Positions 4,963 through 63,898 of a stretch of 64,000 bases of DNA are shown here, piece after piece (within the stretch, counting starts at the first letter, position 1; each line of letters starts with the position of its first letter). Made by a program: the position numbers and the translations under genes. This DNA comes from Mycolicibacterium sp. TY81 (lineage in GTDB: Bacteria > Actinomycetota > Actinomycetes > Mycobacteriales > Mycobacteriaceae). The DNA lies in assembly GCF_018326285.1 (NCBI RefSeq), contig NZ_AP023362.1:4402001-4466000 (forward strand), given 5' to 3'. The notes beneath the pieces were generated by a model, which saw nothing but the letters and a program-made list of their open reading frames with translations, was not told the DNA's origin and did not search any database.

Positions 4963-4996
4963 TGCCGCGAGCCTAACCCCCGCGGCTTACACAAAG

Positions 4997-5036: not shown

Positions 5037-5081
5037 TACAGGGTCTTTCCGGCTCGCGATCAGCTGCGTAGCGTGCGAATC

Positions 5082-7504: not shown

Positions 7505-8619
7505 CCACTCAACCGCCCCACATCCACAAGGGTCTGGCCGGTGTCGTCGTCGACACCACCGCCATCTCCAAAGTCGTGCCCGAGACCAACAGCCTGACCT
7601 ACCGGGGCTATCCGGTACAGGATCTGGCGACGCACTGCACGTTCGAGCAGGTGGCCTACCTGCTGTGGCACGGCGAGCTGCCGACCGAACACGAACTCGC
7701 GATGTTCTGCCAGCGCGAGCGGGCGTCCCGGCGGATCGACCGGTCGATGTACTCGCTGCTGGCCAAGCTGCCCGAGAGCTGCCACCCGATGGACGTGGTC
7801 CGCACCGCGATCAGCTACCTCGGCGCCGAGGATCCGGAAGAGGACGACAGCACGACTCCCGCCAACTACGCCAAGTCACTGCGCATGTTCGCCGTCCTGC
7901 CGACGATCGTCGCCGCCGATATCCGCCGACGGCAAGGACTTTCGCCCATCCAACCGCACAGTCAGCTGGGATACGCCGAGAACTTCCTGAACATGTGCTT
8001 CGGATCGGTCCCCGAACCGGCGATCGTCGTCGCGTTCTCCCAGTCCATGGTGCTGTATGCCGAGCACAGCTTCAACGCGTCCACGTTCGCCGCCCGGGTG
8101 GTGACCTCCACGCAGTCGGACATCTACAGCGCGGTGACCGCCGCCATCGGCGCCCTCAAAGGCTCGCTGCACGGCGGCGCCAACGAGGCCGTCATGCACG
8201 ACATGCTGGAGATCGGCTCGGCCGCGAACGCCCCGAAGTGGTTGCACGGCAAGTTGTCTCGCAAAGAGAAGGTGATGGGCTTCGGACACCGCGTCTACAA
8301 GAACGGTGACTCTCGGGTGCCGACGATGAAGGCTGCGCTCGACCGGGTGGTGGCAGCCCGCGGCGGCCAGCGGTGGCTGGACATCTACACCGTGCTGGAG
8401 CGCGAGATGTTCACCGCCACCAGGATCAAGCCGAACCTCGACTTCCCCACCGGGCCGGCCTACTACCTCATGGGTTTCGACATCCCGGTCTTCACACCGC
8501 TTTTCGTGATGGCCCGCATCGTGGGCTGGACCGCACACATCATGGAACAAGCGGCGTCGAACGCACTGATCCGTCCCCTGAGTGAATACTCGGGCCAACC
8601 ACAACGTTCCATTGCCTGA
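7501..8619 (+). CDS. prpC: 2-methylcitrate synthase
   Basis: This 372-residue citrate-synthase-family enzyme condenses propionyl-CoA with oxaloacetate, the entry step of the cycle. The two catalytic histidine blocks are visible as SLHGGANEAV and the signature GFGHRVYKNGDSR. The N-terminal HKGLAGVVVDTTAISKV and the length are typical of PrpC rather than the larger GltA. The start overlaps prpB by 4 nt. The end overlaps pyc by 8 or 38 nt depending on the pyc start. Confidence 0.94.
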   Translation: MTTQPPHIHKGLAGVVVDTTAISKVVPETNSLTYRGYPVQDLATHCTFEQVAYLLWHGELPTEHELAMFCQRERASRRIDRSMYSLLAKLPESCHPMDVVRTAISYLGAEDPEEDDSTTPANYAKSLRMFAVLPTIVAADIRRRQGLSPIQPHSQLGYAENFLNMCFGSVPEPAIVVAFSQSMVLYAEHSFNASTFAARVVTSTQSDIYSAVTAAIGALKGSLHGGANEAVMHDMLEIGSAANAPKWLHGKLSRKEKVMGFGHRVYKNGDSRVPTMKAALDRVVAARGGQRWLDIYTVLEREMFTATRIKPNLDFPTGPAYYLMGFDIPVFTPLFVMARIVGWTAHIMEQAASNALIRPLSEYSGQPQRSIA

Positions 8620-11600
8620 GCGCGCCATCACCAAAGTCCTCGTCGCCAACCGGGGTGAGATCGCGATCCGGGCCTTCCGGGCGGCCTATGAGCTGGGTAT
8701 CGCGACGGTGGCGGTATACGCCCACGAGGACCGGAACTCCCCACACCGATTGAAGGCCGACGAGTCCTACCAGATCGGCGAGCCTGGCCATCCCGTTCGG
8801 GCTTATCTGTCGGTGCCCGACATCATCCGGGTGGCCCAGCTGTCCGGCGCCGACGCGGTGTACCCGGGATACGGATTCCTCTCGGAGAACCCCCAACTCG
8901 CGGCAGCGTGCGCCGCGGCCGGCATCACGTTCGTCGGCCCGAGTGCCGGCGTCCTGGAGTTGACCGGTAACAAGGCCAGCGCCATCGCCGCGGCCCGAAC
9001 CGCCGGCCTACCGGCGCTCGCATCGTCGGCTCCGTCTGCGTCAGTCAGCGAATTGCTCACGGCCGCAGCCGGTATGGAGTTTCCCCTGTTCGTCAAGGCC
9101 GTCTCGGGTGGTGGCGGACGTGGCATGCGGCGGGTGACCGAGCCGGCCGCGCTGGCCGAGGCCATCGCGGCGGCGTCGCGCGAAGCGGAGTCTGCTTTCG
9201 GTGACCCGAACGTCTACCTCGAGCAGGCGGTCCTCAACCCCCGCCACATCGAGGTGCAGATACTGGCCGACGGAACCGGCGAGGTGATCCATCTCTTCGA
9301 ACGGGACTGCAGTGTGCAACGCCGGCACCAGAAGGTGGTCGAGCTGGCCCCCGCCCCGAACCTCACCGACGAACTGCGGAACCGGATCTGTTCTGATGCG
9401 GTGACATTCGCGCGCCAGATCGGTTACTTCTGCGCCGGAACCGTCGAGTTCCTGCTCGACGAGCGCGGGCACCATGTGTTCATCGAGTGCAATCCGCGCA
9501 TTCAGGTCGAGCACACGGTGACCGAGGAGATCACCGACGTCGACCTGGTCACCGCCCAGTTGCGGATCGCGGCCGGCCGGTCGTTGGCCGAGCTCGGGCT
9601 GAGCCAGGATCGTGTCAGAATCCGTGGCGCCGCCATGCAGTGCCGCATCACCACCGAAGATCCCGCCAACGGTTTCCGTCCCGACACCGGCCGGATCACC
9701 GCCTACCGTTCTCCCGGCGGTGCCGGCGTCCGGTTGGACGGCGGCACCAACGTCGGTGCGGAGATCAGCGCCCACTTCGACTCGATGCTGGTCAAACTCA
9801 CCTGCCGCGGCCACGACTTCGCGACGGCGGTCAGGAGGGCCCGACGCGCCCTCGCGGAGTTCCGCATCCGCGGGGTGTCGACGAACATCCCCTTCCTGCA
9901 AGCGGTTCTCGATGATCCGGACTTCGCCGCAAGCAAGGTGTCGACATCGTTCATCGACGAGCGTGCGCAACTGCTGACGGCCCACACTCCAGGGGACCGC
10001 GGCACGCGCATCCTCAACTACCTCGCGGATGTCACGGTGAACCAACCGCATGGCGGTCGTCCATCGGCTGTGTATCCACGTGACAAGCTGCCGAAGATCG
10101 ATCTCGACGGTCCGGCACCGGCGGGCAGCAAGCAGCTGCTGACCGAGCTCGGCCCAGAGCGCTTTGCGGCCGCCCTGCTGGAGTCGCCGCGGCTGTGGGT
10201 CACCGACACCACGTTCCGCGACGCCCATCAGTCGCTACTCGCAACTCGAGTGCGTACCTCGGGCCTGGTCAAGGTGGCCCCGTACGTGGCGCGCATGACG
10301 CCGCAGCTGCTGTCGGTCGAGTGCTGGGGCGGCGCGACCTACGACGTGGCGCTTCGGTTCCTGAAAGAGGACCCGTGGGAGCGGCTGGCCGCGCTGCGGG
10401 AGGCGATGCCCAACATCTGCCTCCAGATGCTGTTGCGCGGCCGGAACACCGTGGGTTACACACCCTATCCGACATCGGTCACGTCGGCGTTCGTACAGGA
10501 GGCCACCGCCACCGGCATCGACATCTTCCGCATCTTCGACGCGCTGAACAACGTGGAGTCGATGCGGCCGGCGATCGATGCAGTGCGCGAAACCGGTTCC
10601 GCGGTGGCCGAAGTCGCGATGTCCTACACCGGCAACCTCTCCGACCCCGCGGAGACGCTGTACACGCTCGACTACTGGCTGAAGCTGGCCGAGCAGATCG
10701 TCGATGCCGGTGCCCACGTGCTGGCAATCAAGGACATGGCCGGTCTGCTGCGACCACCCGCGGCGGCAAAACTCGTGTCGGCGTTGCGATCCCGTTTCGA
10801 CCTGCCTGTACACGTCCACACCCACGACACCCCAGGTGGACAGCTGGCCACGTACGTCGCGGCCTGGCAGGCCGGTGCCTCTGCAGTCGACGGGGCGGCG
10901 GCACCGCTGGCCGGCACCACCAGCCAGCCTGCGCTGTCGTCGATCGTTGCGGCAGCCGCGCACACCGCGCACGACACCGGTCTGTCGTTGGCAAACGTCT
11001 GTGAGCTGGAACCGTATTGGGAGGCGTTGCGCCGCGTCTACGCGCCGTTCGAGGCGGGCCTGCCCGCACCGACCGGCCGCGTGTACACCCACGAGATCCC
11101 GGGCGGGCAGCTCAGCAATCTGCGTACCCAGGCCGCCGCCCTCGGGCTGGGCGGCCGGTTCGAGGACATCGAAAACGCCTATGCCGGAGCAGATCACGCT
11201 CTCGGCAGGCTGGTGAAGGTGACGCCGTCGAGCAAGGTGGTAGGTGATCTTGCGCTGGCGCTCGTCGGCGCCGGGATGAGCGCCGGGGAGTTCGCCGCCG
11301 ACCCGCACCGCTGCGACATCCCGGATTCGGTGATCGGCTTCCTCCGCGGCGAGCTCGGCGACCCGCCCGGCGGCTGGCCGGAACCCTTGCGCAGCAAGGC
11401 CCTTCGCGGAAGGTCCGACACCAGGCCGACGGCAACCCTCACCGTCGAGGACTACGCCGAACTGGCGGAACCCGGTCTTACCCGCCGAGCGGCCCTGAAT
11501 CGGCTGCTCTTCCCCGGTCCGACCCGCGAATTCCGCACGCATCGAGAACAATTCGGCGACACCTCCCGCCTGAGCGCCAACCAGTTCTTCTACGGGCTGC

Positions 11601-13088: not shown

Positions 13089-15362
13089 CTATCCGGCGCG
13101 AACCAACAGTGCCGCCTGCACCATGCGCCGCAGCGACTCGGTCACCTCGTCGGTCTTGCGGGTCTTCAGCCCGCAGTCCGGGTTCACCCAGAGCCGTTCT
13201 GCCGGAACGGCATCCAGCGCACGGCGCAGCGATGTCGCCATCTCGCCGGTGGTGGGAACCCGGGGCGAGTGAATGTCGTACACACCGGGGCCGACGCTGT
13301 TCGAGAACCCGATGCCGTTGAGGTCGTCGAGGACCTCCATGTGTGAGCGTGCCGCCTCGATCGACGTCACGTCGGCATCGAGATCGGCAATGGCGCCGAT
13401 CACCTCACCGAACTCCGAATAGCACAGGTGCGTGTGAATCTGCGTGGCGTCGCTGACGCCCGACGTCGAGAGCCGGAACGCGTCGACCGCCCACTGCAGG
13501 TAGGCCGCCTTGTCGGCATTGCGCAGCGGCAGCAGCTCTCGCAACGCCGGCTCGTCGACCTGGATGATCGCGATGCCGGCGGACTGCAGATCGACGGTCT
13601 CGTCCCGGATGGCCAGCGCCACCTGGTTGGCCGAGTCCGCCAGCGGCTGATCGTCGCGAACGAACGACCAGGCCAGGATCGTCACCGGGCCGGTGAGCAT
13701 GCCCTTGACGGGCTTGTCGGTCAACGTCTGCGCGTAGGTCGCCCACTCGACCGTCATCGGCTGCCGCCTGGTGACGTCGCCGAAGAGGACCGGCGGGCGC
13801 ACGCAGCGGCTGCCGTACGACTGCACCCAGCCGTTCTTGGTGGTCAAGAAGCCGTCGAGATGCTCGGCGAAGTACTGCACCATGTCGTTGCGCTCGGGCT
13901 CGCCGTGCACCAGCACATCGAGGCCGAGTTCCTCCTGCAACCGGATCACCGTCTCGACTTCGGATTTCATCCGGCCGATGTAATCGGCCTCGTCGATCTC
14001 GCCGGCGACGAACGCCGCCCGGGCCTTGCGGATCTCGACGGTCTGCGGGAACGAACCGATCGTCGTGGTCGGCAGTGCCGGCAGATGCAGGCGGGCGTCT
14101 TGTGCCTTACGCCGTTCGGCGGCCGGCCCGCGGCTGATGCCACCGGACAGGACCGTGCCGAGCCGGGCTCGGACGGCGGCGTTGTGCAGTCGCGGGTCGT
14201 GCCTGCGTGACGCGACCGCCCGGTTCGATGCCTCGAGCTGCGCGGCCACCGAGCCCCGGCCAGTGCGCAGCGCCGTCGCCAGCGTCGCGACCTCGTCGAC
14301 TTTCTCGGCACCGAACGCCAGCCAGCCGCGGAGCGCGTCGTCGAGACCGTCCTCGCGCTCGAGCGAGTACGGGACGTGCAGCGTCGAGCACGACGTGGAC
14401 ACAGCCACCGAACGTGCCGACTCCTGCACTGACTCCAGCCGGACCAGTGCGGCCTCCAGGTCTGTGCGCCAGACGTTGCGGCCGTCGACGACGCCGGCCA
14501 CCAACAGCTTGTCCGCGAGACCGGGAATTCCGGCCGTCGGCTGGTCACCGCCGGCGACGAAATCGACTGCGACGCCGTCGATCTGCGTGCGCGCCAGCGC
14601 CGGCAGCACACTCCCCAGCTCGCCGAAGTAGGTCGCGACCAGGATCGCCGGACGTTCGGCGGCTGCCGCGAGCGTGGCGTAGGCATACTCGGCCAATTCG
14701 GCGGCGTTGGCAGTGCCGTCCAGGATGTCGGTGACCAAGACGGGTTCGTCGATCTGCACCCACTCGGCACCGGCTGCGGCGAGTCGGCCCAGCAGTTCGG
14801 CATACAGCGGCAGCAGCTCGCCGAGGCGCCCGATGGGCACCTCGGCGCCGTCGACGGCCTTGCTCAGCGCCAGGAACGTGATCGGCCCGACGATCACCGG
14901 CCGGGCCGGAATACCCTGCGCCTGAGCCTCTTTGAGCTCTGCCAGCACCTTGTCCGGATGCAGTGTGAACGTGGTGTCGGGGCCGATCTCCGGGACCAGG
15001 TAGTGGTAATTGGTGTCGAACCACTTCGTCATCTCGAGCGGTGCGATGTCCGCCGTCCCGCGAGCCGCCGCGAAATAGCGATCGAGATCATCGGCAATGC
15101 CGCCCGCGCGACTCGGCAGGGCGCCGAGCAGTACCGCGGTGTCGAGCATCTGGTCGTAGTAGGAAAACGTATTGACCGGAATGGAATCCAGTCCGGCGGC
15201 CGACAACGCGGCGATGGTCTCGCGGCGCAGGCCCGCGGCGATTTCCTCGAGCGCGGCCCGGTCGATCCGGCCCGCCCAATAGCGTTCGACGGCCCGCTTG
15301 AGTTCACGGTTCGGACCGATGCGGGGCGCGCCGAGAATGGTTGCGGTGAATGGTGTTGACAA
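13089..15362 (-). CDS. metE: Cobalamin-independent methionine synthase
   Basis: This 757-residue protein transfers the methyl group of methyltetrahydropteroyl-triglutamate to homocysteine, using zinc. Both halves of the double barrel are present. Zinc-binding residues are seen in [10 protein letters not shown] and [15 protein letters not shown], and [12 protein letters not shown] opens the catalytic half. The TTG at 15362 was preferred because AAGGACG lies just upstream and the N-terminus [15 protein letters not shown] aligns with known mycobacterial MetE; an in-frame GTG at 15395 would extend it. A cobalamin riboswitch upstream should shut it off when B12 lets MetH act instead. Confidence 0.95.
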
Positions 15363-15484
15363 CTGACGTCCTTCAAATGCGACGGAAGTGCGCACCGCCC
15401 AAGGACATTCATCGAGGACAGCACAAACCGCCCTCGGCGATCAGCCCATTCCACGAGGCGATGCACCGCCGGACGCGGCGCATC

Positions 15485-15685
15485 CGGCACAGCTGGCAGG
15501 TCTTCGGACTCGCAGGCACGCACCCTTCGGGTGCACCTAGTGGCCGTCGCTTCCCAGTCCGATGCGGACCAGTGCGGATGACGGCGGTCGTTCCTGCATA
15601 CCGCTGCGGGACAGTCCCGGATTCTCACCGGGTTCCCTCTCATGGCGGTTCCCCGCCATTCGACGCCGCAGACACCGAAGCGTCA
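15485..15685 (-). ncRNA. Cobalamin riboswitch upstream of metE
   Basis: Read on the minus strand, the element holds the hallmarks of the cobalamin class: GGTGTC near the 5' end, GGGAACCCGGTGAGAATCC, GGGACTGTCCCGCAGCGGTA (15599-15618), the B12-box region GCGACGGCCACTAGG, and GAGTCCGAAGACCTGCC at the 3' end. About 120 nt of leader (15363-15484) separates it from metE and should hold the expression platform; I could not draw a unique switching hairpin there. Together they account for the 349-bp stretch 15363-15711, which has no gene. The known M. tuberculosis metE leader also carries this riboswitch. Confidence 0.92.
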
Positions 15686-17351: not shown

Positions 17352-17436
17352 ACGACGGCGAAAGATCTGACTCGCCGCAGAGGGCTCACAGTGGCGCAAC
17401 CGTGCCGGATTCTCACCGGCTTCCATGCACCGTCGT
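17352..17436 (-). ncRNA. Cobalamin riboswitch upstream of cbtBA
   Basis: On the minus strand the element reads GGAAGCCGGTGAGAATCCGG, then the B12 box GCGCCACTGTGA (17386-17397), then GAGTCAG. It is closed by an ACGACGG/CCGTCGT stem (17352-17358 with 17430-17436). About 48 nt separate it from the cbtB ATG and include the ribosome binding site, so either translational or transcriptional control is possible. The rest of 17304-17565 shows no gene. Confidence 0.92.
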
Positions 17437-40189: not shown

Positions 40190-41217
40190 CGCCGTGGCTC
40201 GTCGATTTCGGTTGGCAGCGGCAGGGTTTCGGCATCGGTCCAGATCGCGTTGAACCGCTTCATGCCGACGGTCGACACCACCTCGTCGACGAACTTCTTG
40301 CCGCGGGTGTACTGGGCGATCTTGGCGTCGACCCCCAGCAGGGCGCGGACAATCCGTTGCAACGGGGACTGTTTGCGGTGGCGGCGCTCGTCGAACCGGC
40401 TGCGGATGGTGGCGACCGACGGCACGACCGCCGGACCGACGGCGTCCATGACGTGATCGGCGTGCCCTTCCAGCAGTGTCCCCAGCACCAGCAGCTGATC
40501 CAGCGCACGCTGCTGCTCGTCGGACTGCATGATGCGCATGATGCCCAGAATGCCTTGCGAATTCGCGTCGGCGTCGCCGTCACGCTGTGCGCGCACGTAC
40601 TCCGCCAACCGGCCGATGACGTCGCCGGCATCCAGACCGGATTCGTCGGTCAGCACGGCGAGCGCCTGCGACATGTGTTCGGTGAGCCAGGGGTTCGCGC
40701 GGAACTGCACGCGGTGCGTCACCTCGTGCAGGCACACCCACAGCCGGAAGTCGGCGGGTTCGACCTTCAACTGCCGTTCGGCGGCAAGCACATTCGGGGC
40801 GACCAGAAGCAGCTCTCCACCATTGACCGCGAAGGGGTCGTACTGCCCGAGGATGCCCGACGACACGAACGCCAGCACCGCGCCCGTCTGCGCCCCGGCG
40901 ATACGTCCGCCCAGCTTCGCGGCCAGGCCTGTGGGACTGGAGGTTTCGCCACCGGTCATCACCCGCATGGAGTCGGCGGCAGCACGCACCCAGTCCTGCC
41001 GGTCGACGACGCGCGCTTCGGGCACTTCGGCGCCCTCGTTGAGGAGCGTCACCTCGCGCACCGGGAGCTCGGCCCGGCGCGCCGAATCGGCGAGCTGCAC
41101 TCGCACCTGGTTGCGGGTGTAGTCGGTGGTCGCCGGTTCCGGGCGGGTCAGCTTTGCCCCGACCGTGGCGGCGAAGCCCCAGTCGACGGCCCGGCCGACG
41201 GTCGGCTTCCGGCTCAC
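40168..41217 (-). CDS. Zinc metalloprotease-like DUF2342 protein (F420-biosynthesis-associated family)
   Basis: This 349-residue protein matches Rv3626c. It carries HEVTH in CLHEVTHRVQF, a zincin HExxH motif, and a downstream EGHADHVMD that could supply a further ligand. The family was once named coenzyme F420 biosynthesis-associated from gene linkage; a direct role in F420 is unproven. The GTG at 41217 overlaps the dacB stop as GTGA, which fixes the start; the upstream in-frame codons lie in dacB. No signal peptide is seen. Confidence 0.88.
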   Translation of the reverse strand: MSRKPTVGRAVDWGFAATVGAKLTRPEPATTDYTRNQVRVQLADSARRAELPVREVTLLNEGAEVPEARVVDRQDWVRAAADSMRVMTGGETSSPTGLAAKLGGRIAGAQTGAVLAFVSSGILGQYDPFAVNGGELLLVAPNVLAAERQLKVEPADFRLWVCLHEVTHRVQFRANPWLTEHMSQALAVLTDESGLDAGDVIGRLAEYVRAQRDGDADANSQGILGIMRIMQSDEQQRALDQLLVLGTLLEGHADHVMDAVGPAVVPSVATIRSRFDERRHRKQSPLQRIVRALLGVDAKIAQYTRGKKFVDEVVSTVGMKRFNAIWTDAETLPLPTEIDEPRRWIDRVL

Positions 41218-42584
41218 GTGCCGCACCCGCAGGACCGGAACGCCGCGGCGAGGGCGTCCAGCGCGGTGCGTCCTTCCGGACCGGCGTTGTTGGAGATGAG
41301 CGCGAAGGTCAGGACCCGTCCGCTCTGATCGGTGACGATGCCCGCGAGCGCGTTGGTGCCGGTCAGTGAACCGGTCTTGGCGCGCAGGTATCCGGCCGAC
41401 GAGGTGTCGGCGTAGCGGTTCCACAGCGTGCCACTGCCGCCCGCGATCGGCAGGACGTCGAGCAGCGGGCGCAGGCGGGGCTCACTGGTGCCAGCGGCCG
41501 CGTTGACGACGTCGTCCAGGACCGTGGCGGTGAGCCGGTCGTTGACCGACAGACCGCTGGCGTCGAACAGCGTCGCACCCGAGGTGGTCAGTCCGGCCTT
41601 CGCCAGCTGCCCGAGAACGGCACGTACCCCGCCGTCGAAACTCTGCGGCTGGTTCACCGCGGCGGCGACCTCGCGGCCGATCGACTCGGCCATCACGTTG
41701 TCGGAGGCGCCCATCATCTCGCGCAGGCGCTCGATCAGCGGCGGCGACTGCACTGCCGCGAGCTGCTGGCCGCCGGCAGGGGTGCTGCGAAGGGTCACGT
41801 TGGCGGGGTCGACCCGCAGCGCGGCCGCCAGGGCACAGCCGGCGTCGAGGGCCGGTGTCGTCGAGCGCTTGGACTCGACCGTCGTGGGCTGGACGCGACC
41901 GGCGTCGACCATCACCGACTGGATCGGCGCCCAGTCACCGCCCTCGATGTCGGCGACGTCCCAGCCCGGCGCCATGGTCGGGCCCGAGTAGAGGCTGGTG
42001 TCGACCTGAATGGCCCGGGGCGTGACGCCGGCCTTGCGGACCTGGTCGGCCAGATCGGAAATCCGGGCCGCGTCGCCGTACCAGGTGTCGGTGCCCGGCG
42101 GCGCCGCCGACAGCGTCGGGTCGCCGCCGCCCTTGAGCACCACGACGCCCGGGGTGTCGCCGGACACGACCGTGGTGGTCAGCCGGGCGTTGCGGTCGAG
42201 GGTCAGCAGGGCCGCGGCCGCCGTGAGGGTCTTGTTGGTGGACGCGGGCTGCAGCGGGACGTTCTCGCTCAGCCCCCACACCTGGGTGCCGGTGATGGCA
42301 TCGGTGATCCGGCCCCCGAGAATGCCGAGATTCGGGTTGGCGGCCAGCGGCGCCAGCACGGCGGCGAGCTGCGCGGGCACCACTTGCGGCGCGTTGTCGG
42401 AGACCGGTTGCACGGCTGGTCGGGGCGAGACGAGCGCGGGCTGGGGCTTGACCGTCGCCCCGGCTGCCGGGACCGCATCGTGCCGCGTCATCACCGCGGC
42501 GGCCGCCACCAGCGCGGCAACCAGCACGAGAACTGCCACACCGATCACCACGTGGGTCGATCGGCGCCACCGGGTGGGCCGCAT
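41214..42584 (-). CDS. dacB: PBP4-type D-alanyl-D-alanine carboxypeptidase/endopeptidase
   Basis: This is a 456-residue, class C penicillin-binding protein. It has an N-terminal membrane anchor (HVVIGVAVLVLVAALVAAAAVM), then the active-site Ser115-T-N-Lys118, an SDN in GASDNVMAES and KTG in RAKTGSLTG. The three motifs and the insert between the first two are typical of the DacB/PBP4 family. It trims peptidoglycan stem peptides outside the membrane. It corresponds to Rv3627c and is divergent from ppa, as in M. tuberculosis. Confidence 0.93.
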   Translation of the reverse strand: MRPTRWRRSTHVVIGVAVLVLVAALVAAAAVMTRHDAVPAAGATVKPQPALVSPRPAVQPVSDNAPQVVPAQLAAVLAPLAANPNLGILGGRITDAITGTQVWGLSENVPLQPASTNKTLTAAAALLTLDRNARLTTTVVSGDTPGVVVLKGGGDPTLSAAPPGTDTWYGDAARISDLADQVRKAGVTPRAIQVDTSLYSGPTMAPGWDVADIEGGDWAPIQSVMVDAGRVQPTTVESKRSTTPALDAGCALAAALRVDPANVTLRSTPAGGQQLAAVQSPPLIERLREMMGASDNVMAESIGREVAAAVNQPQSFDGGVRAVLGQLAKAGLTTSGATLFDASGLSVNDRLTATVLDDVVNAAAGTSEPRLRPLLDVLPIAGGSGTLWNRYADTSSAGYLRAKTGSLTGTNALAGIVTDQSGRVLTFALISNNAGPEGRTALDALAAAFRSCGCGT

Positions 42585-43227: not shown

Positions 43228-44634
43228 ATGGATTGGTTCACAGCACCCGAATACTGGTTCAGCCGGCTGGTGCTGGAGCGTGGCATCGCCGGCGTCTACC
43301 TGATTGCCTTCCTCTGCGCCGCAAGGCAATTCCGCGCCCTACTCGGCGCACAGGGCATGTTGCCCATTCCGCGATATCTGTCGGCGGTGTCGTTCCGGCA
43401 GGCGCCCAGCACCTTTCACTGGCATTACTCCGACCGGTTCTTCGCGGCCGTCGCCTGGTCGGGTGCCGCACTCAGTACCGCGCTGGTCGCGGGCGCCGGC
43501 GACCTCGTGCCGCTCTGGGCGGCGATGCTCCTGTGGCTGCTGCTGTGGGTGCTGTACCTGTCGATCGTCAACGTCGGGCAGCGGTGGTACGCCTTCGGCT
43601 GGGAGTCCCTGCTGCTGGAGGCCGGATTCCTCGCGGTGTTCCTCGGCAACGACTCCGTGGCGCCGCCCGTGCTGGTGATCTGGCTGGCGCGGTGGCTCGT
43701 CTTCCGCACCGAGTTCGGCGCCGGGCTGATCAAGCTGCGCGGTGACCGGTGCTGGCGCGATTTGACGTGCCTCTACTACCACCACGAGACGCAGCCGATG
43801 CCGGGCCCGCTGAGCTGGTTCTTCCATCACCTGCCCAAGCCGCTGCACCGGGTCGAGGTCGCGGTCAACCACTTCACGCAGCTGGTGGTTCCGTTCGGGC
43901 TGTTCGCACCGCAGCCCGTCGCCACCATCGCGGGCGCGATCGTGGTGGTCACGCAGCTCTGGCTGGTGATCTCCGGTAACTACGCGTGGCTGAACTGGTT
44001 GACGATGGTGTTGGCGTTCAGTGCGATCGCCGGGCCGGCGTCCGCCACACCCCTGCCCGCCGCAGCGCCGACGTGGTTCGTGGTGCTCGTCATCGGATTC
44101 AGCGCCCTGGTCGTGGTGCTGAGCTACTGGCCGGTGCGCAACCTACTGTCGCCGCAGCAGCGCATGAACGCATCGTTCGATCCGCTGCACCTGGTGAACA
44201 CCTACGGCGCCTTCGGCTCGATCGGCCGCGTCCGGCGCGAGGTGGTGATCGAGGGCACCGACGATGACGACATCACCGACGAAACCGTCTGGCACGAATA
44301 CGAATTCAAGGGCAAGCCCGGCGCCGTCGGCCGGCTGCCGCGGCAGTGGGCGCCCTACCACCTGCGACTCGACTGGCTGATGTGGTTCGCCGCGATCTCG
44401 CCGACCTACGGGCGCCAGTGGTTCGCCGGCCTACTGGAGCGATTGCTGCGCGGCGACGCGGACACACTGAAACTGTTGCGGCACAATCCGTTTCCGGATT
44501 CGCCACCCAAGTTCGTCCGCGCGCGGATCTTCCGCTACCGCTACGCCACTCCCCACGAACTGTGGCACGACCGGGTGTGGTGGCACCGGACGCCGGAAGG
44601 CGAGTACTTCCCGCCGGTCACGCTGCCCGACTAG
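43228..44634 (+). CDS. Lipase maturation factor (LMF1)-family membrane protein
   Basis: This 468-residue protein has several membrane spans in its first 300 residues (VYLIAFLCAARQ, LWAAMLLWLLLWVLYLSIVNVG and others). It contains the LMF family blocks WYAFGWESLLLEAGFLAVFLG and RTEFGAGLIKLRGDRCWRDLTCLYYHHETQPMP, with a C-terminal domain ending in WWHRTPEGEYFPP. In vertebrates LMF1 helps lipases fold in the ER. The bacterial relatives are unstudied, and a role in exported lipase or envelope protein folding is only an inference. It is convergent with tetR by a 4-nt overlap. Confidence 0.85.
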   Translation: MDWFTAPEYWFSRLVLERGIAGVYLIAFLCAARQFRALLGAQGMLPIPRYLSAVSFRQAPSTFHWHYSDRFFAAVAWSGAALSTALVAGAGDLVPLWAAMLLWLLLWVLYLSIVNVGQRWYAFGWESLLLEAGFLAVFLGNDSVAPPVLVIWLARWLVFRTEFGAGLIKLRGDRCWRDLTCLYYHHETQPMPGPLSWFFHHLPKPLHRVEVAVNHFTQLVVPFGLFAPQPVATIAGAIVVVTQLWLVISGNYAWLNWLTMVLAFSAIAGPASATPLPAAAPTWFVVLVIGFSALVVVLSYWPVRNLLSPQQRMNASFDPLHLVNTYGAFGSIGRVRREVVIEGTDDDDITDETVWHEYEFKGKPGAVGRLPRQWAPYHLRLDWLMWFAAISPTYGRQWFAGLLERLLRGDADTLKLLRHNPFPDSPPKFVRARIFRYRYATPHELWHDRVWWHRTPEGEYFPPVTLPD

Positions 44635-50635: not shown

Positions 50636-50654
50636 CGATGATGACTGTGTGTTG

Positions 50655-51170
50655 ATGCATCAGGGAATCGGTCTCGACGCGTTCAACGCCATGCCGAAGC
50701 AGCGGGCGGTGCACGCACTGTACGAATGCTGCTACAGCGTGCCTCTGGCCGGCAGCCTGGCCGACGGACGCGCCTACGAAGACCACGACCACCTGTTCCG
50801 CCGGGCCGACGACCTCCTGTTCGGGCTCGCCGACTCCTCGGTGGACGCGATCCTGCAGGCGTACCCGCAGGTCGGGCGGCGGCCCGGCAGCGCGCGCTCG
50901 CAGTTCGAGCAGTGCGCCGTCTGCGACCGGGACCCCGAACTCATGGCGACGCTGCAGACCAACGCACTGACCTACCGGGACCACTTCGGCTTCGACTTCG
51001 TGATGTTCGTCGGTTCCATGAGCGCCGACGAGGTACTGGCCCACATGGCCGACCGCATGCACAACGACCACGAGACCGAACGCAAAGTGGTCCGGAACGA
51101 GCTGGCCCGCATCAACCGGACCCGGCTGGAGCGCATGCTCGGGCCTGAAGGCGGCTACAACAACTGGTAA
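50655..51170 (+). CDS. OHCU decarboxylase-like protein (UraD family), catalytic His absent
   Basis: This 171-residue protein matches the 2-oxo-4-hydroxy-4-carboxy-5-ureidoimidazoline decarboxylase family of urate breakdown. It has ALYECCYS near the N-terminus, SQFEQ at 82-86, NALTYRDHFGFDFVMFVGSM, and RMHNDHETERKVVRNELARI. Where the family has HPRIG, whose His is catalytic, this protein has AYPQVG, with Tyr70 in place of His. No other urate or allantoin genes lie nearby. It may therefore be inactive in that reaction or act on something else. The start is ATG 50655 or GTG 50649. Confidence 0.75.
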   Translation: MHQGIGLDAFNAMPKQRAVHALYECCYSVPLAGSLADGRAYEDHDHLFRRADDLLFGLADSSVDAILQAYPQVGRRPGSARSQFEQCAVCDRDPELMATLQTNALTYRDHFGFDFVMFVGSMSADEVLAHMADRMHNDHETERKVVRNELARINRTRLERMLGPEGGYNNW

Positions 51171-51232
51171 CGAAGCCGCCACGGCGTGCCCGCCGCCAGG
51201 AAGCGTTCGCCAAGCCTTAGTAGTTTGTACCC

Positions 51233-54200
51233 GTGCATCAGGAGATCCCCCCGCAGTACGTGCGTTCGGCGAACGCACCGCAGGCCCGGACCCTCATCGA
51301 CATCCTCTACGCCACGGCCGCCCAATATCCCGATGCACCCGCCATCGACGACGGCACCGTCCAGCTCACGTATGCCGAGCTGATCGCCGACGTCGAGGAG
51401 AGCGTCGCCTGGCTGGCCGCGCGCGGCATCGGCCGAGGTGACCGCATCGGCATCCGCATGCCGTCGGGCAGCTACGCGCTGTACGTGTCGATTCTGGCGA
51501 CCCTCGCGACCGGCGCCGCATACGTCCCCGTCGACGCCGACGATCCCGAGGAACGCGCCGCGCTGGTCTTCGGCGAGGCCGGCGTCGTCGGCATCATCAC
51601 CGAGGCGGGCCTGGTCCGCGGGCCCGGCTCGACCCGCGGCTGGCAGGCCGGCCGCCCGCTGACCCGCGACGACGCCTGGATCATCTTCACCTCCGGCTCC
51701 ACCGGCACCCCGAAGGGCGTCGCGGTGACGCACCGCAACGCCGCCGCGTTCGTCGACGCCGAGGCCGAGATCTTCCTGAAGGACAATCCGCTTGGCCCGG
51801 GCGACCGGGTGCTGGCCGGGCTGTCGGTGGCCTTCGACGCGTCCTGCGAAGAGATGTGGCTGGCCTGGCGCCACGGTGCCTGCCTTGTCCCGGCCCCGCG
51901 CTCGCTGGTGCGCAGCGGCATGGACCTCGGCCCGTGGCTGGTGTCGCGCGACATCACCGTCGTCTCGACGGTCCCGACGCTGGCCTCGCTGTGGCCTGCC
52001 GAGGCCCTGGAGGCCGTGCGTCTGCTGATCTTCGGCGGCGAGGCCTGCCCGCCCGAGCTCGCCGAGCGCCTGGCGGTCGAGGGCCGTGAGGTGTGGAACA
52101 CCTACGGACCGACCGAAGCCACGGTCGTCGCGTGCCTCGCGCCGCTCGGCGGTGGCCCGGTCAGCATTGGCCTGCCGCTGCCCGGCTGGGATCTGGCGGT
52201 CGTCGACAAGGACGGCCTGCAGGTTGGCTACGGCGACGTCGGCGAGCTGGTGATCGGCGGCGTCGGCCTGGCCCGCTACCTGGACCCGGAAAAGGACGCC
52301 GAGAAGTACGCGCCGATGGAGACCCTCGGCTGGGGCCGCGCGTACCGCAGCGGCGACCTGGTCCGGCTCGAGGCGGACGGACTCTACTTCCAGGGCCGCG
52401 CCGACGATCAGGTCAAGGTCGGCGGCCGGCGCATCGAGCTCGGCGAGGTCGACGCCGCACTGGTCAACCTGCCGGGTGTCAGCGGCGGTGCCGCCGCGGT
52501 GCGCAAGACCGCCACCGGCACTCCCCTGCTCGTCGGCTACATCGCCAGCACCGACCCCGAATTCGATATCACCAAGGCCCGCAAGACTCTTGCCGAGTCG
52601 CTGCCGGCCGCGCTGGTGCCGCGCCTCGTCCTGGTCGACGAATTGCCCACGCGCACATCAGGAAAGGTCGACCGCAACGCACTGCCGTGGCCCATCGAAG
52701 GGGCGGGCGCGGCGGGCGACGACAGTCCCGACCTCGACGGCACCATGGGCTGGCTCGCCGGGCTGTGGCGCGACGTGCTGGCCTCCCCGATCGACGGACC
52801 CGGCGCCGACTTCTTCGCACTCGGCGGCGGCTCACTGTCCGCCGCGCAGCTCGTCTCGCTACTGCGGGAGAAGTACCCACAGGTCACCGTCGCCGACCTG
52901 TACGACCACCCGCGCCTGGGCTCTCTGGCCGGCTACCTCGATGAACTCGACCCGCCGCCGCTCGTCGAAACCCGAAGCGTCACACCGGTTCCGCTGACGA
53001 CGCAGCTCATCCAGACCGCTGCCGCGATCCCGCTCGCGACGCTGGCCGGCATGCAGTGGGTCGTGTGGCTGGCCATCCTGAACAACGTCGCCGCCGCGCT
53101 GCACCTGCTGCCCTGGGCCCACACCGTGAACTGGTGGGTGATCCTCGTCGGATTCCTGGTGTTCGTCACGCCGCTCGGCCGCATGGGTATCGCCGTGTTC
53201 GCCGCCCGCGCCCTGCTGTCCGGCCTGGAACCGGGCACCTACAAACGTGGCGGCTCCGAGCACCTGCGGGTCTGGCTCGCCGAACGGCTCGGCGAGGCCA
53301 GCGGCGCCGAAAACCAGGCCGGTGCACCGTGGTTGGTGTACTACGCCCGCGCACTGGGCAACCGCGTCGGCGAGGGCGTCGACCTGCACTCGACGCCACC
53401 GGTCACCGGCATGCTCACGCTCGGCGACCGCTGCTCGGTCGAGCCGGAGGTCGACCTCACCGGCCACTGGATCGACGGCGACCTGTTCCACGTCGGCCCC
53501 ATCAGCATCGGCAACGACGCCACCATCGGTGCCCGCACGACGCTGCTTCCGGGTGCGGTGGTCGGCAAGAACGCCGACGTCGCACCGGGTTCCGGCGTGA
53601 TCGGCAAGGTCAAGGCCAAGCAATACTGGAAGGGTTCGCCGGCGGTGAAGTCGGGCAAGGCCCATCACCCGTGGCCCGACGAGCGGCCGGGCCGCGCGCC
53701 CATCTGGGTGGCGATGTACGGGCTGACGTCGGTGCTGCTCGGCGGACTGCCGATCCTGGCCCTCGCCGCGGGGCTCGCGGTGCTGATTCTGCCGGTGCGC
53801 CATACGCATTCGCTGCCCGAGGCGGTCCTGCCGGTCGCGTTGTGGACGCCCGTCGCCGCGGTGGTCGCCATGGCGGTGTACGCCGCGCTGACCGTGATCG
53901 GGGTGCGCCTGCTGGCCCTCGGCCTGACCGAGGGCTACCACCCGGTGCGCAGCCGGGTGGGCTGGCAGCTGTGGGCCACCGAGCGCCTGATGGACGCCGC
54001 CCGCAACTACCTGTTCCCCATCTACGCGAGCCTGCTGACGCCGTGGTGGCTGCGGATCCTCGGCGCGAAAGTCGGTAAGGACACCGAGATTTCGACGGCC
54101 CTGCTGACCCCGAAGTTCACCGAGGTGCTCGACGGCGCGTTCCTGGCCGACGACACCATGGTGGCGTCGTACGAGCTCGGCGGCGGCTGGATTCACGTCG

Positions 54201-55126
54201 CCAAGGCGACCGTCGGCCGGCGCGCGTTCCTCGGCAACTCGGGCATCACCCAGCCCGGCCGCCGCGTCCCCGACGACGGTCTGGTCGCCGTGCTGTCGGC
54301 GACGCCGCACAAGGCCAAGGCCGGTTCGTCGTGGCTGGGCAGTCCGCCGATCCGGTTGCGCCGCCAGCCAACCGAAGCCGACGCGGTACGCACCTTCCAT
54401 CCGTCGCTGCGCCTCAAGGTGATGCGGTCGACGGTCGAGACCCTGCGGATCGTCCCGGTGATGGTGACGTTCGGCATCGGCGTCGCGGTCCTCGGCGTCC
54501 TGCAGGCCCTGGCCGGCGAATTGGGCTGGGTGTGGGCGGCATTGGGCGCCGGCCTGGTCCTGCTGAACGCGGGCGCCATCGCCGGTGCCATTGCCGTGGT
54601 CGCGAAGTGGTTGATGGTCGGGCGCATCCGGGCCGTCGAGCACCCCCTGTGGTCGCCGTTCGTGTGGCGCAACGAGGTGTCCGACACCTTCGTCGAGACC
54701 GTCGCCGGCCCGTGGTTCGCCCGCGCGGCCAGCGGCACCCCGGTGATGAACCTGTGGCTGCGGGCCCTCGGCGCGGCGATCGGCCGCGGCGTGTGGTGCG
54801 AAACCTATTGGCTGCCAGAGGCCGACCTGGTGACGCTGGGCCGGGGTGCGACGGTGAACCGGGGCTGCGTGGTGCAGACCCACCTGTTCCACGACCGCAT
54901 CATGCAACTGGACACCGTGGTGCTGGAGGAGGGCGCGACGCTCGGCACCCACTGCGTCGCACTGCCGGCGGCCAGCATCGGCGCGGGCGCGACCGTCGGG
55001 CCGGCGTCCCTGGTGATGCGCGGTGACGCGGTGCCGGGCTCGACGCGCTGGCAGGGCAATCCGATCGCTCCGTGGATCGGCAAGAAGCGCAAGTCCGGCG
55101 GCCGACAAAAGGCGCAGGCCGCGTGA
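51233..55126 (+). CDS. Pls/PosA-family non-ribosomal peptide synthetase, predicted lysine-activating
   Basis: This is a 1297-residue protein. The adenylation domain (about 20-485) has FTSGSTGTPKG (152-162), NTYGPTEAT (289-297), YRSGDL and TSGKVDRNALP with Lys478. A carrier domain follows with GGGSL, phosphopantetheine Ser534. Then come six predicted membrane spans in three pairs (about 596-660, 824-895 and 1070-1128) that separate three soluble domains with hexapeptide-repeat character. There is no condensation or thioesterase domain. This is the layout of epsilon-poly-L-lysine synthetase. The specificity residues read D-A-E-S-I-G-T-V-V-K. It starts at GTG 51233 and its stop overlaps the M1 peptidase start as GTGA. 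The product is inferred. Confidence 0.9.
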   Translation: MHQEIPPQYVRSANAPQARTLIDILYATAAQYPDAPAIDDGTVQLTYAELIADVEESVAWLAARGIGRGDRIGIRMPSGSYALYVSILATLATGAAYVPVDADDPEERAALVFGEAGVVGIITEAGLVRGPGSTRGWQAGRPLTRDDAWIIFTSGSTGTPKGVAVTHRNAAAFVDAEAEIFLKDNPLGPGDRVLAGLSVAFDASCEEMWLAWRHGACLVPAPRSLVRSGMDLGPWLVSRDITVVSTVPTLASLWPAEALEAVRLLIFGGEACPPELAERLAVEGREVWNTYGPTEATVVACLAPLGGGPVSIGLPLPGWDLAVVDKDGLQVGYGDVGELVIGGVGLARYLDPEKDAEKYAPMETLGWGRAYRSGDLVRLEADGLYFQGRADDQVKVGGRRIELGEVDAALVNLPGVSGGAAAVRKTATGTPLLVGYIASTDPEFDITKARKTLAESLPAALVPRLVLVDELPTRTSGKVDRNALPWPIEGAGAAGDDSPDLDGTMGWLAGLWRDVLASPIDGPGADFFALGGGSLSAAQLVSLLREKYPQVTVADLYDHPRLGSLAGYLDELDPPPLVETRSVTPVPLTTQLIQTAAAIPLATLAGMQWVVWLAILNNVAAALHLLPWAHTVNWWVILVGFLVFVTPLGRMGIAVFAARALLSGLEPGTYKRGGSEHLRVWLAERLGEASGAENQAGAPWLVYYARALGNRVGEGVDLHSTPPVTGMLTLGDRCSVEPEVDLTGHWIDGDLFHVGPISIGNDATIGARTTLLPGAVVGKNADVAPGSGVIGKVKAKQYWKGSPAVKSGKAHHPWPDERPGRAPIWVAMYGLTSVLLGGLPILALAAGLAVLILPVRHTHSLPEAVLPVALWTPVAAVVAMAVYAALTVIGVRLLALGLTEGYHPVRSRVGWQLWATERLMDAARNYLFPIYASLLTPWWLRILGAKVGKDTEISTALLTPKFTEVLDGAFLADDTMVASYELGGGWIHVAKATVGRRAFLGNSGITQPGRRVPDDGLVAVLSATPHKAKAGSSWLGSPPIRLRRQPTEADAVRTFHPSLRLKVMRSTVETLRIVPVMVTFGIGVAVLGVLQALAGELGWVWAALGAGLVLLNAGAIAGAIAVVAKWLMVGRIRAVEHPLWSPFVWRNEVSDTFVETVAGPWFARAASGTPVMNLWLRALGAAIGRGVWCETYWLPEADLVTLGRGATVNRGCVVQTHLFHDRIMQLDTVVLEEGATLGTHCVALPAASIGAGATVGPASLVMRGDAVPGSTRWQGNPIAPWIGKKRKSGGRQKAQAA

Positions 55127-56457
55127 CCCGGACCAACAAGAAGGACCGCAAAAGCGTTGCGCCGGTGATTGATCCGTATCTACCGAACAACGGCAACTTC
55201 GGCTTCCGGGTATCTCGCTACGAGCTGAGCCTCGAATACAAGGTGGAGAGCAACCGGCTGACTGGCATCGCCAACATCACCGCGGTCACCCTGGCGTCAC
55301 TGCACTGGTTCACCCTGGATCTGTCCGATGCGCTGTCGGTGGCCAAGGTCGAGGTCAACGGCCGCCGGCCGGCCAAGTTCCGCACCGTCAACGGCAAGCT
55401 GCACATCACGCTGGCCAACCAGTTGCCCGCCGGCGCCGCGATGAAGGTGACGGTGCGCTACGGCGGCAACCCACGTCCCATCAAATCCATCTGGGGCACA
55501 GTCGGTTTCGAGGAGCTGACGGAGGGGGCGCTGGTCGCCGGGCAGCCGAACGGCGCGGCGTCCTGGTTCCCGTGCGACGACCACCCGAGCAGCAAGGCCA
55601 GCTACCGCATCGCGATCACGACCGACAGCCCGTACCGGGTGGTCGCCAACGGCGAGCTGGTGAGCCGCAAAACCCGTGCGGCCCAGACGGCCTGGGTGTA
55701 CGAGCTCGCCGAGCCGACGTCGACCTACCTGATCACGCTGCAGATCGGCCGCTACGAGTCGGTGCGCCTGGCCAAATCGCCGGTGCCGATGTCCGCGGCC
55801 CTGCCGCAGCGGCTGATCCGCAACTTCGAATACGACTTCGGCCGGCAGCCTCAGATGATGCAGCTGTTCACCCGGCTGTTCGGGCCGTATCCGCTGTCGA
55901 CCGGCTACACCGTCGTCGTCACCGACGACGACCTGGAGATCCCGCTCGAGGCGCAAGGTATTTCGATCTTCGGCGCCAACCACTGCGACGGCCGCCGCAG
56001 CGCCGAGCGGCTCATCGCGCACGAGATGGCGCACCAGTGGTTCGGCAACTCGGTGACGGTACGACGCTGGCGCGACATCTGGCTGCACGAGGGATTTGCC
56101 TGTTACGCGGAGTGGCTGTGGGCCGAGGAGTCGGGCTGGCGCACCGCCGACCAGCTGGCCGCCCACAATCTGCAGAAACTCCGGGGCCTGCCGCAGAACC
56201 TGCTGCTGGCCGATCCGGGACCCGAGGACATGTTCGACGACCGCGTCTACAAGCGCGGCGCACTGACCCTGCACGCCCTGCGGCGCACCATCGGCGACGC
56301 GAATTTCTTTGCGCTACTGCGCGATTGGACCACCCGGTACCGGCACTCGACCGCCCTGACCGACGACTTCACCGGCCTGGCCGCCAACTACACCGACCAG
56401 TCCCTGCGCGGACTGTGGACCGCGTGGCTCTACACGACGGAGCTGCCGGCACTGTGA
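55123..56457 (+). CDS. M1-family zinc metallopeptidase, two-domain form
   Basis: This is a 444-residue protein. The beta N-terminal domain (20-215) is followed by a thermolysin-like catalytic domain with His300-E-M-A-His304, the third ligand Glu323 in LHEGFACYAEW, and the transition-state Tyr376 in VYKRGALTLH. The GxMEN exopeptidase motif appears as the variant LEAQG (275-279). It lacks the large C-terminal domain of PepN, and no signal peptide is evident. Its GTG overlaps the Pls-type gene by 4 nt. Poly-lysine-degrading enzymes of Streptomyces are zinc aminopeptidases of this family, so a matching hydrolase or self-protection role is plausible. Confidence 0.88.
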   Translation: MTRTNKKDRKSVAPVIDPYLPNNGNFGFRVSRYELSLEYKVESNRLTGIANITAVTLASLHWFTLDLSDALSVAKVEVNGRRPAKFRTVNGKLHITLANQLPAGAAMKVTVRYGGNPRPIKSIWGTVGFEELTEGALVAGQPNGAASWFPCDDHPSSKASYRIAITTDSPYRVVANGELVSRKTRAAQTAWVYELAEPTSTYLITLQIGRYESVRLAKSPVPMSAALPQRLIRNFEYDFGRQPQMMQLFTRLFGPYPLSTGYTVVVTDDDLEIPLEAQGISIFGANHCDGRRSAERLIAHEMAHQWFGNSVTVRRWRDIWLHEGFACYAEWLWAEESGWRTADQLAAHNLQKLRGLPQNLLLADPGPEDMFDDRVYKRGALTLHALRRTIGDANFFALLRDWTTRYRHSTALTDDFTGLAANYTDQSLRGLWTAWLYTTELPAL

Positions 56458-57662
56458 AACCCAGCGGTGTGGCGCGGGTCGCCGTCGCGACGGTGCTCAG
56501 CGCGCTCTGCGGCTACGCGATCCTGTACCTCGCCGCACGCGATCTGGCCCCCGCCGGGTTCTCGGTGTTCAGCGTCTTCTGGGGCGCCTTCGGGTTGTTC
56601 ACCGGCGCGGCCAACGGACTGCTGCAGGAGGCCACCCGTGAGGTCCGCGTCGCGCGCATCGCCGAGCCCCAGCCGGGACCGCACCTGCAGCCGCTCCGCG
56701 TCGCCGCGCTCGTAGCCGTTGCCGCAGGCCTGCTGATCGCCGGCACCGCCCCACTGTGGGCAGCACACGTGTTCGTCGAATCCACCCCGCTGAGCGTGAC
56801 ACTGCTGAGCGTCGGCCTCGCCGGCTTCTGCCTGCACGCCACCTTGCTCGGCGTGCTGGCCGGGGCCGACGGCTGGACGCAGTACGGGACGCTGATGGTG
56901 ACCGACGCGGGTATCCGGGTCGCCGTCGCGGTCGCGGCGTTCATCCTGGGCTGGGGCCTCGACGGCTACCTGTGGGCCACCGTCGCCGGGTCGATGTCGT
57001 GGCTGATCCTGCTGCTGGCCTCCCACGTCGCCCGGTCCGCAGCCGCCATCCACACGCCCGGCACCCCGCGGACGTTCCTGACGGGGTCGGCGCACTCGAT
57101 CGCCGCCGCGGGCGCCAGCGCCGTGCTGGTGATGGGTTTCCCGGTGCTGCTGCAGGCCACGTCCCGCGACCTGGGGGCCACCGGCGGCGTCATCATCCTG
57201 GCGGTGACGCTGACCCGCGCCCCGCTGCTGGTCCCGCTGACCGCCATGCAGGGCAACCTGATCGCGCATTTCGTCGACAACCGCAGGCTGCGCGCGCTAC
57301 TCACGCCGACCCTGGTGCTCGCCGGACTGGGCGCACTGGCAGTGGTGGCGGCCGGGCTGCTCGGCCCGTGGCTGCTGCGCACGCTGTTCGGGCCCGAGTA
57401 CGCCGCGAGCGGCGCGCTGCTGGCCTGGTTGACGGCCGGCGCCGTCGCCATCGCCTTCCTGACCCTGACCGGGGCCGCGACCGTCGCCGCCGCGCTGCAC
57501 CGCGCCTACGCGATCGGCTGGGTGAGCGCCACCGTGGCCGCGGCACTGTTGTTGCTGCTGCCGCTGGACCTGCAGACCCGCACCATCGTCGCGCTGATGT
57601 GCGGACCGCTGGTCGGAATCGTCGTCCACCTCGCCGCGCTGAGCGCGATCAGGCGCCCCTGA
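56454..57662 (+). CDS. Flippase-like polytopic membrane protein
   Basis: This 402-residue protein has about 12 hydrophobic segments and few charged loops, resembling the oligosaccharide flippase/MATE-like (MVF) superfamily; the position corresponds to Rv3630. It would move a lipid-linked or other envelope precursor across the membrane. The GTG at 56454 overlaps the M1 peptidase stop by 4 nt, so it is in the same transcript. The adjacent PpgS-like transferase suggests a polyprenyl-phosphate sugar as cargo. A peptide product of the Pls-type synthetase is the alternative. Confidence 0.8.
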   Translation: MKPSGVARVAVATVLSALCGYAILYLAARDLAPAGFSVFSVFWGAFGLFTGAANGLLQEATREVRVARIAEPQPGPHLQPLRVAALVAVAAGLLIAGTAPLWAAHVFVESTPLSVTLLSVGLAGFCLHATLLGVLAGADGWTQYGTLMVTDAGIRVAVAVAAFILGWGLDGYLWATVAGSMSWLILLLASHVARSAAAIHTPGTPRTFLTGSAHSIAAAGASAVLVMGFPVLLQATSRDLGATGGVIILAVTLTRAPLLVPLTAMQGNLIAHFVDNRRLRALLTPTLVLAGLGALAVVAAGLLGPWLLRTLFGPEYAASGALLAWLTAGAVAIAFLTLTGAATVAAALHRAYAIGWVSATVAAALLLLLPLDLQTRTIVALMCGPLVGIVVHLAALSAIRRP

Positions 57663-57683: not shown

Positions 57684-58376
57684 ATGTCCTTCTATCACGA
57701 CGTCTGGATCGTCATCCCCGCGTACAACGAGGCGAGCGTCATTGCCGACGTCGTCGCGGATGTGCGCGCCGTCTTCCCCAATGTCGTCGTCGTCGACGAC
57801 GGCGGCCGGGACGACACCGGCGACCGCGCCTTTGCCGCCGGCGCCCACGTGGTGCGTCATCCGGTGAACCTCGGTCAGGGGGCGGCCATCCAGACCGGCG
57901 TCGAATACGCCCGATCACGGCCCGGGGCACAGTTTTTCGCCACGTTCGACGCCGACGGCCAGCACCAGGTCAAGGACGTCGTGCGGATGCTCGACAGGCT
58001 GCGGGCCGAGGATCTGGACATCGTCATCGGCACGCGGTTCGCCGATCGGCCGCCCGACCGCATGCCGATGCTCAAGCGGCTGCTGCTGCCGATCGTCGCC
58101 AAACTCAGCCGGTCCAGCCGCCAGCTGCACCTGACCGATGCGCACAACGGGCTGCGGGTGTTCAACAAGACGGTGGCCGACGGACTGAACCTGACCATGA
58201 ACGGCATGAGCCACGCCAGCGAATTCGTCGCGCTGATCGTGGAGAACCAGTGGCGGATCGCCGAACAACCGGTGCACATCCTGTACACCGACTATTCGAT
58301 GTCCAAGGGTCAGCCGCTGGTCAACGGCGTCAACATCATCGTCGACGGGTTGCTGCGCGGGAGGTTGCGCCGATGA
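57684..58376 (+). CDS. GT2 glycosyltransferase, PpgS-like (polyprenyl-phosphate sugar synthase)
   Basis: This 230-residue family 2 glycosyltransferase begins DVWIVIPAYNEASVI and has the DxD-type block FDADGQHQ, as in dolichol-phosphate-mannose synthases. It corresponds to Rv3631, which makes polyprenyl-phospho-N-acetylgalactosamine for the galactosamine substituent of arabinogalactan. No membrane span is present; the next gene supplies one. It starts with ATG 57684 and overlaps the DUF2304 gene as ATGA. Confidence 0.88.
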   Translation: MSFYHDVWIVIPAYNEASVIADVVADVRAVFPNVVVVDDGGRDDTGDRAFAAGAHVVRHPVNLGQGAAIQTGVEYARSRPGAQFFATFDADGQHQVKDVVRMLDRLRAEDLDIVIGTRFADRPPDRMPMLKRLLLPIVAKLSRSSRQLHLTDAHNGLRVFNKTVADGLNLTMNGMSHASEFVALIVENQWRIAEQPVHILYTDYSMSKGQPLVNGVNIIVDGLLRGRLRR

Positions 58377-58732
58377 TCTGGACCAAGGCATTACTGATCG
58401 GCGCGGTGGTCCTGCTGCTGGCCTACCTGTTCTCGTCGCGGCGCAACGCGCAATCCCGGGCCTGGGTCAAGGTCGGCTACGTGTTCTTCGTGCTCGGCGC
58501 CATCTACGCCATCCTGCGCCCCAACGACACCACGGTGGTGGCGCACTGGCTCGGCATCGGCCGCGGCGCCGACCTGCTGTTGTACGCGCTTGTCATCGCG
58601 TTCCTGTTCACGACCATCAGCGCCTACATGCGGTTCAAGGACCTCGAACTGCGCTACGCCCAACTGGCCCGCGCGGTGGCGCTGGAGGGCGCCCGGGTCC
58701 CGGACCCCGAGCCGCCGATCCGTCAGGTCTGA
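58373..58732 (+). CDS. DUF2304 small membrane protein, partner of the GT2
   Basis: This 119-residue protein has three membrane spans (ALLIGAVVLLLAYLF, VGYVFFVLGAIYAIL, LLLYALVIAFLFTTISAYM) and then a short charged helix. It is the DUF2304 protein that follows PpgS-type transferases (Rv3632), reported in M. tuberculosis to help the transferase work at the membrane. It is coupled to the GT2 gene by a 4-nt overlap and convergent with tetR by a 10-nt overlap. Confidence 0.88.
   Translation: MIWTKALLIGAVVLLLAYLFSSRRNAQSRAWVKVGYVFFVLGAIYAILRPNDTTVVAHWLGIGRGADLLLYALVIAFLFTTISAYMRFKDLELRYAQLARAVALEGARVPDPEPPIRQV

Positions 58733-61162: not shown

Positions 61163-63898
<2,736 letters not shown>

Follow-up and report, generated by a model that had tools for sequence, protein, structure and literature searches.

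The 64,000-nucleotide stretch of the Mycolicibacterium sp. TY81 genome analysed here (contig NZ_AP023362.1, forward-strand positions 4,402,001 to 4,466,000; hereafter the window) contains a pls-like gene followed by a gene for an M1 zinc peptidase (Table 1). The synthetase is predicted to polymerise L-lysine to epsilon-poly-L-lysine, and the M1 peptidase likely cuts the polymer inside the cell; we consider this reading of the pair highly probable. Poly-lysine carries positive charges and serves as a preservative in food. The domains, the adenylation code, the catalytic residues, the gene overlap and the conservation of the pair were all observed directly.

The pls-like gene starts with GTG, and an open frame of 1297 residues was found at 51233-55126, as described in an earlier note on this DNA. 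Residues 593-1278 of the product match the whole of the TIGR02353 profile (Pls/PosA family non-ribosomal peptide synthetase; profile positions 2-695 of 695) at 743.2 bits, versus a curated cut-off of 423.1. By this match the protein is a member of the Pls/PosA group of cationic homopoly-amino-acid synthetases, in agreement with the earlier assignment. A Pfam search of the window proteins at E<=0.001 gave one match each to AMP-binding (27-348), PP-binding (507-569) and Hexapep in the synthetase, which bears out the single adenylation and single carrier domain already proposed; no condensation or thioesterase family, and nothing beyond these three families, was found by this search, again as claimed. 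The carrier serine is indeed residue 534, and Ser stands at this position in all 101 rows of an alignment composed of the window, the copy from its own genome (L001) and 99 other loci.

Numbered by the scheme that we take to apply to the ten positions of the adenylation code, the code residues read DAESIGTVVK (D202, A203, E206, S245, I266, G268, T290, V298, V299 and K478). Among solved structures, the best match of the synthetase was 7wew, named Epsilon-poly-L-lysine synthase (638.8 bits, residues 9-490), the second-best chain being a linear gramicidin synthase (359.5 bits), and 7wew has identical letters at all ten code positions. The same code was present in 97 of the 101 aligned rows (window, L001 and 95 other loci); the remaining four (L006, L075, L093 and L094) are truncated, and the code letters that they do have agree with it. 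It has been published that Ala at code position 2 goes with lysine, Met with ornithine and Phe with diaminopropionate or diaminobutyrate, and that Glu at position 3 binds the side-chain amine of the substrate (PMC10522769, excerpt); the window synthetase has the Ala and the Glu of the lysine type. This code is the one of 7wew and does not vary among the 95 other loci in which it is complete, and we therefore predict that the adenylation domain uses L-lysine. Across the class, 197 genomes were surveyed, including some of the mycobacterial genus itself, and 42 of them scored above the TIGR02353 cut-off. The code was found in 25 of 28 newly fetched loci from this survey, and the other three were distant Pls proteins, of about 25% identity, whose code did not align fully.

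The earlier note also proposed three soluble domains and six membrane spans, arranged pairwise. A hydropathy scan of the synthetase at a threshold of 1.6 gave peaks in the terminal part at about residues 607, 645, 843, 882, 1085 and 1115; weak passes in the adenylation domain at 91, 119 and 307 were not counted as spans. In an AlphaFold2 model of residues 583-1297 (predicted local distance difference test, pLDDT, 82.4; predicted template modelling score, pTM, 0.86), three helical pairs stand at the hydropathy peaks; in the first pair, the second span is split in two. The two predictions thus agree with the proposed topology. The three soluble parts are likewise present, but the Hexapep match and the model identify them as left-handed beta-helix acyltransferase-like repeats, the form published for the soluble parts of PosA (PMC10522769, excerpt). 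One adenylation and one carrier domain, and more weakly the hexapeptide acyltransferase-like fold, would also suit a one-module ligase that does not polymerise but couples individual lysines to a lipid or a wall constituent. We regard this as highly improbable, given that full-length enzymes of the same layout, described as characterised in the literature excerpts, make poly-amino acids, and that the TIGR02353 match is full-length and the code identical to that of the poly-lysine enzyme. Amino-acid modification of an envelope component, which the earlier note had offered as an alternative, received no positive support.

Read from the GTG at 55123, the peptidase has 444 residues, and the four-base overlap with the pls stop codon (55124-55126) is as claimed. 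The protein has the two Pfam domains Peptidase_M1_N and Peptidase_M1, and the residues previously singled out (HEMAH 300-304, Glu323, Tyr376) were recovered: His300-Glu301-x-x-His304, Glu323 and Tyr376 are invariant in 25 of 25 aligned M1 sequences, window included, so that the HExxH...E site and catalytic Tyr of M1 zinc metallopeptidases are both in place. As no hydrophobic segment was found in it by the hydropathy scan, the peptidase is predicted to stay cytoplasmic. In an NCBIfam profile search it fell far below the cut-offs of the named aminopeptidases. The earlier note gave the poly-lysine-degrading enzymes of Streptomyces as M1 aminopeptidases, which was not confirmed from the literature excerpts: Pld is described as exo-type and PldII as endo-type, and no family is stated there (PMC8506220). 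Homologous M1 genes do adjoin lysine-type pls in six loci (L107-L112) from a single genus of the class with large genomes, likely Streptomyces.

The closest solved chains to the peptidase, 6a8z (146 bits) and 6iff (144 bits), are both titled 'Zinc metalloprotease, putative', and we know of no link of either to poly-lysine. They would fit a general cytoplasmic aminopeptidase that neighbours pls by chance only, an explanation made very unlikely by the distribution of the two genes. Among 248 species genomes of one mycobacterial genus, including that of the window, each gene was detected in 186 (pls at E<=1e-100, M1 at E<=1e-60); both were present in 185, pls only in one, M1 only in one and neither in 61. 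The pair is therefore not rare, being carried by about three quarters of the species sampled in the genus. Moreover, in the class survey an M1 gene was found within a flank of about 1.5 kb in 23 of the 28 newly fetched loci, all 23 with the lysine code; this amounts to 23 of the 25 lysine-code loci (in L119 and L130 there was none within that flank) as opposed to none of the three distant Pls loci.

The two single-gene genomes deserve comment. In the one with pls only (G183), the flippase gene that follows the pair in the window comes after pls, with no M1 match above 50 bits between them; this locus (L140, about 4275-9438) is likely a natural loss of the peptidase. The one with M1 only (G126) is 63% complete, and a pls end adjoins M1 at the edge of the sequence piece examined. 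In a further locus (L141 of G045, 7061-10921) the pls frame is in three pieces with M1 intact behind it, through either decay or sequencing error.

A scan of named genomes gave at least 586 confirmed synthetase relatives, the best 80 of which were used as named loci. The M1 gene lies within 2.5 kb downstream of pls in 79 of these, and in the other (L041) the contig ends directly after pls; thus the adjacency pointed out in the earlier note is kept in related genomes. The named loci span Mycolicibacterium, Mycobacterium, Mycolicibacter, Rhodococcus, Nocardia, Tsukamurella, Williamsia, Dietzia, Kribbella and others. Over the 97 loci covering both stops, the nearest M1 start overlaps the pls stop by four bases in 71 and by one base in 15, and lies beyond it in 11. 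With the peptidase gene directly downstream of the synthetase gene, the window has the gene arrangement of a pls-pldII type operon.

We infer the substrate, the product and the role of the peptidase from characterised relatives, and the pair might work as follows. The adenylation domain would make lysyl-AMP, and the phosphopantetheine arm on Ser534 would carry the lysine as a thioester. The membrane-bound beta-helix domain would then, on the cytoplasmic side, link each lysine through its epsilon-amine to the carboxylate of the following lysine, with no thioesterase needed for release of the chain. Through the overlap of its start with the pls stop, the peptidase is probably produced in concert with the synthetase; it would serve self-protection by removing or trimming polymer that remains inside the cell. 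The earlier idea that the pair makes and trims an isopeptide-linked homopolymer is supported in part, by family, predicted span pairs and adjacency, and the substrate is now narrowed, as a prediction, to L-lysine.

Table 1. Position and basis of the features described in the window.
Feature	Position	Strand	Basis
UraD-type OHCU decarboxylase, upstream neighbour, outside the unit	50649..51170	+	profile match
Upstream element AGTAGTTTGTACCCGTG, ending in the pls GTG start; likely promoter -10 region	51219..51235	+	window motif search
pls-like gene, Pls/PosA family synthetase, 1297 residues	51233..55126	+	TIGR02353, Pfam, 7wew match
Adenylation domain, about residues 20-490	51290..52702	+	code residues, 7wew alignment
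Carrier (PP-binding) domain, residues 507-569, Ser534	52751..52939	+	Pfam, alignment
Pls/PosA terminal (polymerisation) domain, residues 593-1278, six predicted spans and three hexapeptide beta-helix parts	53009..55066	+	TIGR02353, hydropathy, model
M1 zinc peptidase, 444 residues, start overlapping the pls stop by 4 bases	55123..56457	+	Pfam, zinc site
Predicted MOP-fold (Wzx/MATE/MurJ-like) flippase, 402 residues, start overlapping the M1 stop by 4 bases	56454..57662	+	fold
ppgS, polyprenyl-phospho-N-acetylgalactosaminyl synthase (family assignment)	57684..58376	+	NF058614, 411.8 bits (cut-off 370)
DUF2304 protein, likely Rv3632 counterpart	58373..58732	+	PF10066, 96.6 bits
NAD-dependent sugar epimerase-family protein, probable Rv3634c position	61163..62410	-	homologous part from about residue 107

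The product of the third gene has a predicted MOP fold across its whole length, closest to WzxE, and the ppgS and DUF2304 genes behind it belong to the arabinogalactan galactosamine pathway. The probable ATG of the DUF2304 gene overlaps the ppgS stop, within a scanned open reading frame of 58250-58732. The synthetase and the peptidase could serve the envelope-sugar genes that follow, making poly-lysine or a short oligolysine for the envelope, with the MOP flippase moving it or a lipid-linked partner. Besides the fold, this would agree with the four-base overlap between M1 and the flippase gene, present in the window as well as 26 of the 32 loci measured, and with the 30 of 79 named loci that have a flippase gene directly behind M1, 19 of them with ppgS within 3 kb (in L031, among the other 11, the contig ends); Dietzia (L100, L101) and Williamsia (L068) also have a flippase gene there. 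However, a neighbourhood by itself is weak evidence, and 49 of the 79 loci, for example those from Mycobacterium asiaticum and Nocardia, lack a flippase gene behind M1, a few of these contigs ending early. The pair is present without ppgS in G002, G011 and G012, and G072 and G214, for example, carry the flippase gene without pls or ppgS. The flippase gene is near-universal in the genus (244 of 248 genomes, versus 186 for pls), with or without the pair, so a role for it in polymer export is weakly supported, and we consider service to the envelope-sugar genes unlikely. The pls-M1-flippase-ppgS order was also seen, at 70-77% identity to the window, in a metagenome-assembled genome titled Bifidobacterium breve (L060), a label that is likely wrong.

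In M. tuberculosis, gene numbers run consecutively from Rv3629c through Rv3630 to Rv3631 (PMC6487176, excerpt). By gene numbers and families, Rv3630-Rv3631(PpgS)-Rv3632-Rv3634c would be the counterparts, in the same order, of the genes behind the window pair. Judged by the consecutive Rv numbers, there would be no synthetase-peptidase pair before Rv3630, which fits the earlier note's view that M. tuberculosis has no counterpart at this position. From gene order and numbers only, the flippase gene would be the positional counterpart of Rv3630, which has been described as a drug efflux protein (PMC8562490). A D-Ala-D-Ala carboxypeptidase with an Rv3627c_N domain is encoded on the minus strand at 41214-42584, which suggests synteny of the window with the Rv3627c-Rv3635 stretch. 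It could be imagined that epsilon-poly-L-lysine is produced by the majority of mycobacterial species as a polymer of the envelope: Pls would make it and the M1 peptidase edit it as a translationally coupled unit, which together with a coupled MOP flippase and the galactosamine genes would set the positive charge of the wall. M. tuberculosis and roughly one quarter of its genus would then be without such a layer; we find this reading distinctly unlikely.

Allowing up to two mismatches, the window has a single copy of AGTAGTTTGTACCCGTG, the one upstream of pls, versus 0.01 expected. Its 11-base core occurs within 70 bases upstream in exact form in eight of 75 named loci and with up to two edits in six more, and all of these loci come from Mycobacterium or Mycolicibacterium records. 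As the putative -10 box lies directly 5' of the start codon, a leaderless transcript beginning at pls is suggested. Elsewhere in the window, a protein with both lipase maturation factor LMF1 domains (Pfam, 218.9 and 169 bits) is encoded at 43228-44634. On the minus strand, a cobalamin riboswitch (15478-15685, 86 bits) lies upstream of a gene for B12-independent methionine synthase (13089-15395), and a further AdoCbl riboswitch match, at 17352-17436, is weaker (52.6 bits versus a gathering threshold of 50).

Operons of pls and pldII have been published for Streptomyces and Corynebacterium (PMC8117764, excerpt). Pls and PldII of Streptomyces albulus resemble the window pair in domain layout, adenylation code (7wew) and an operon with a peptidase gene (PMC8117764, excerpt). 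The Streptomyces product is known and made industrially, whereas no mycobacterial product is known; in the window, unlike in S. albulus, the overlaps run on into a flippase gene ahead of the arabinogalactan-galactosamine genes. Corynebacterium variabile has the same Pls-peptidase pair, and its gene yields epsilon-poly-lysine upon expression in S. coelicolor, with none detectable at home or in C. glutamicum; unlike in the window, flippase or ppgS neighbours are not mentioned in the part of that source available (PMC8117764). PosA of Acinetobacter baumannii, a delta-poly-L-ornithine synthetase, shares the A-T-terminal domain layout, and the model published for it, with three beta-helices above six membrane helices, resembles the window synthetase, but its ornithine code (DMEHNGTVSK) and single-gene operon are not (PMC10522769, excerpt). 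In Nocardia, the NAPAA class has been reported in 218 genomes in the text and 263 in the abstract of one study (PMC12153302, excerpt).

The pls-M1 pair is thus ordinary among actinobacteria, and surprising as a common mycobacterial possession. As operons of this kind were already known, what is new is the mycobacterial distribution of the pair (185 of 248 genomes) and its locus. No report of poly-lysine synthesis in mycobacteria was among the literature matches listed (titles and abstract openings); most subscription papers lay outside this scope, and it is no proof of absence.

Poly-lysine synthetases have mostly been treated as secondary-metabolite genes of soil actinomycetes. In the window, the pls-M1 pair is tied to cell-wall genes through overlapping starts. 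If the polymer is made, it would be an unrecorded cationic polymer of mycobacteria, relevant to the charge of the envelope, to competition and to the entry of drugs; if it is not, the pair would be a widely kept silent gene set, which itself would need an explanation.
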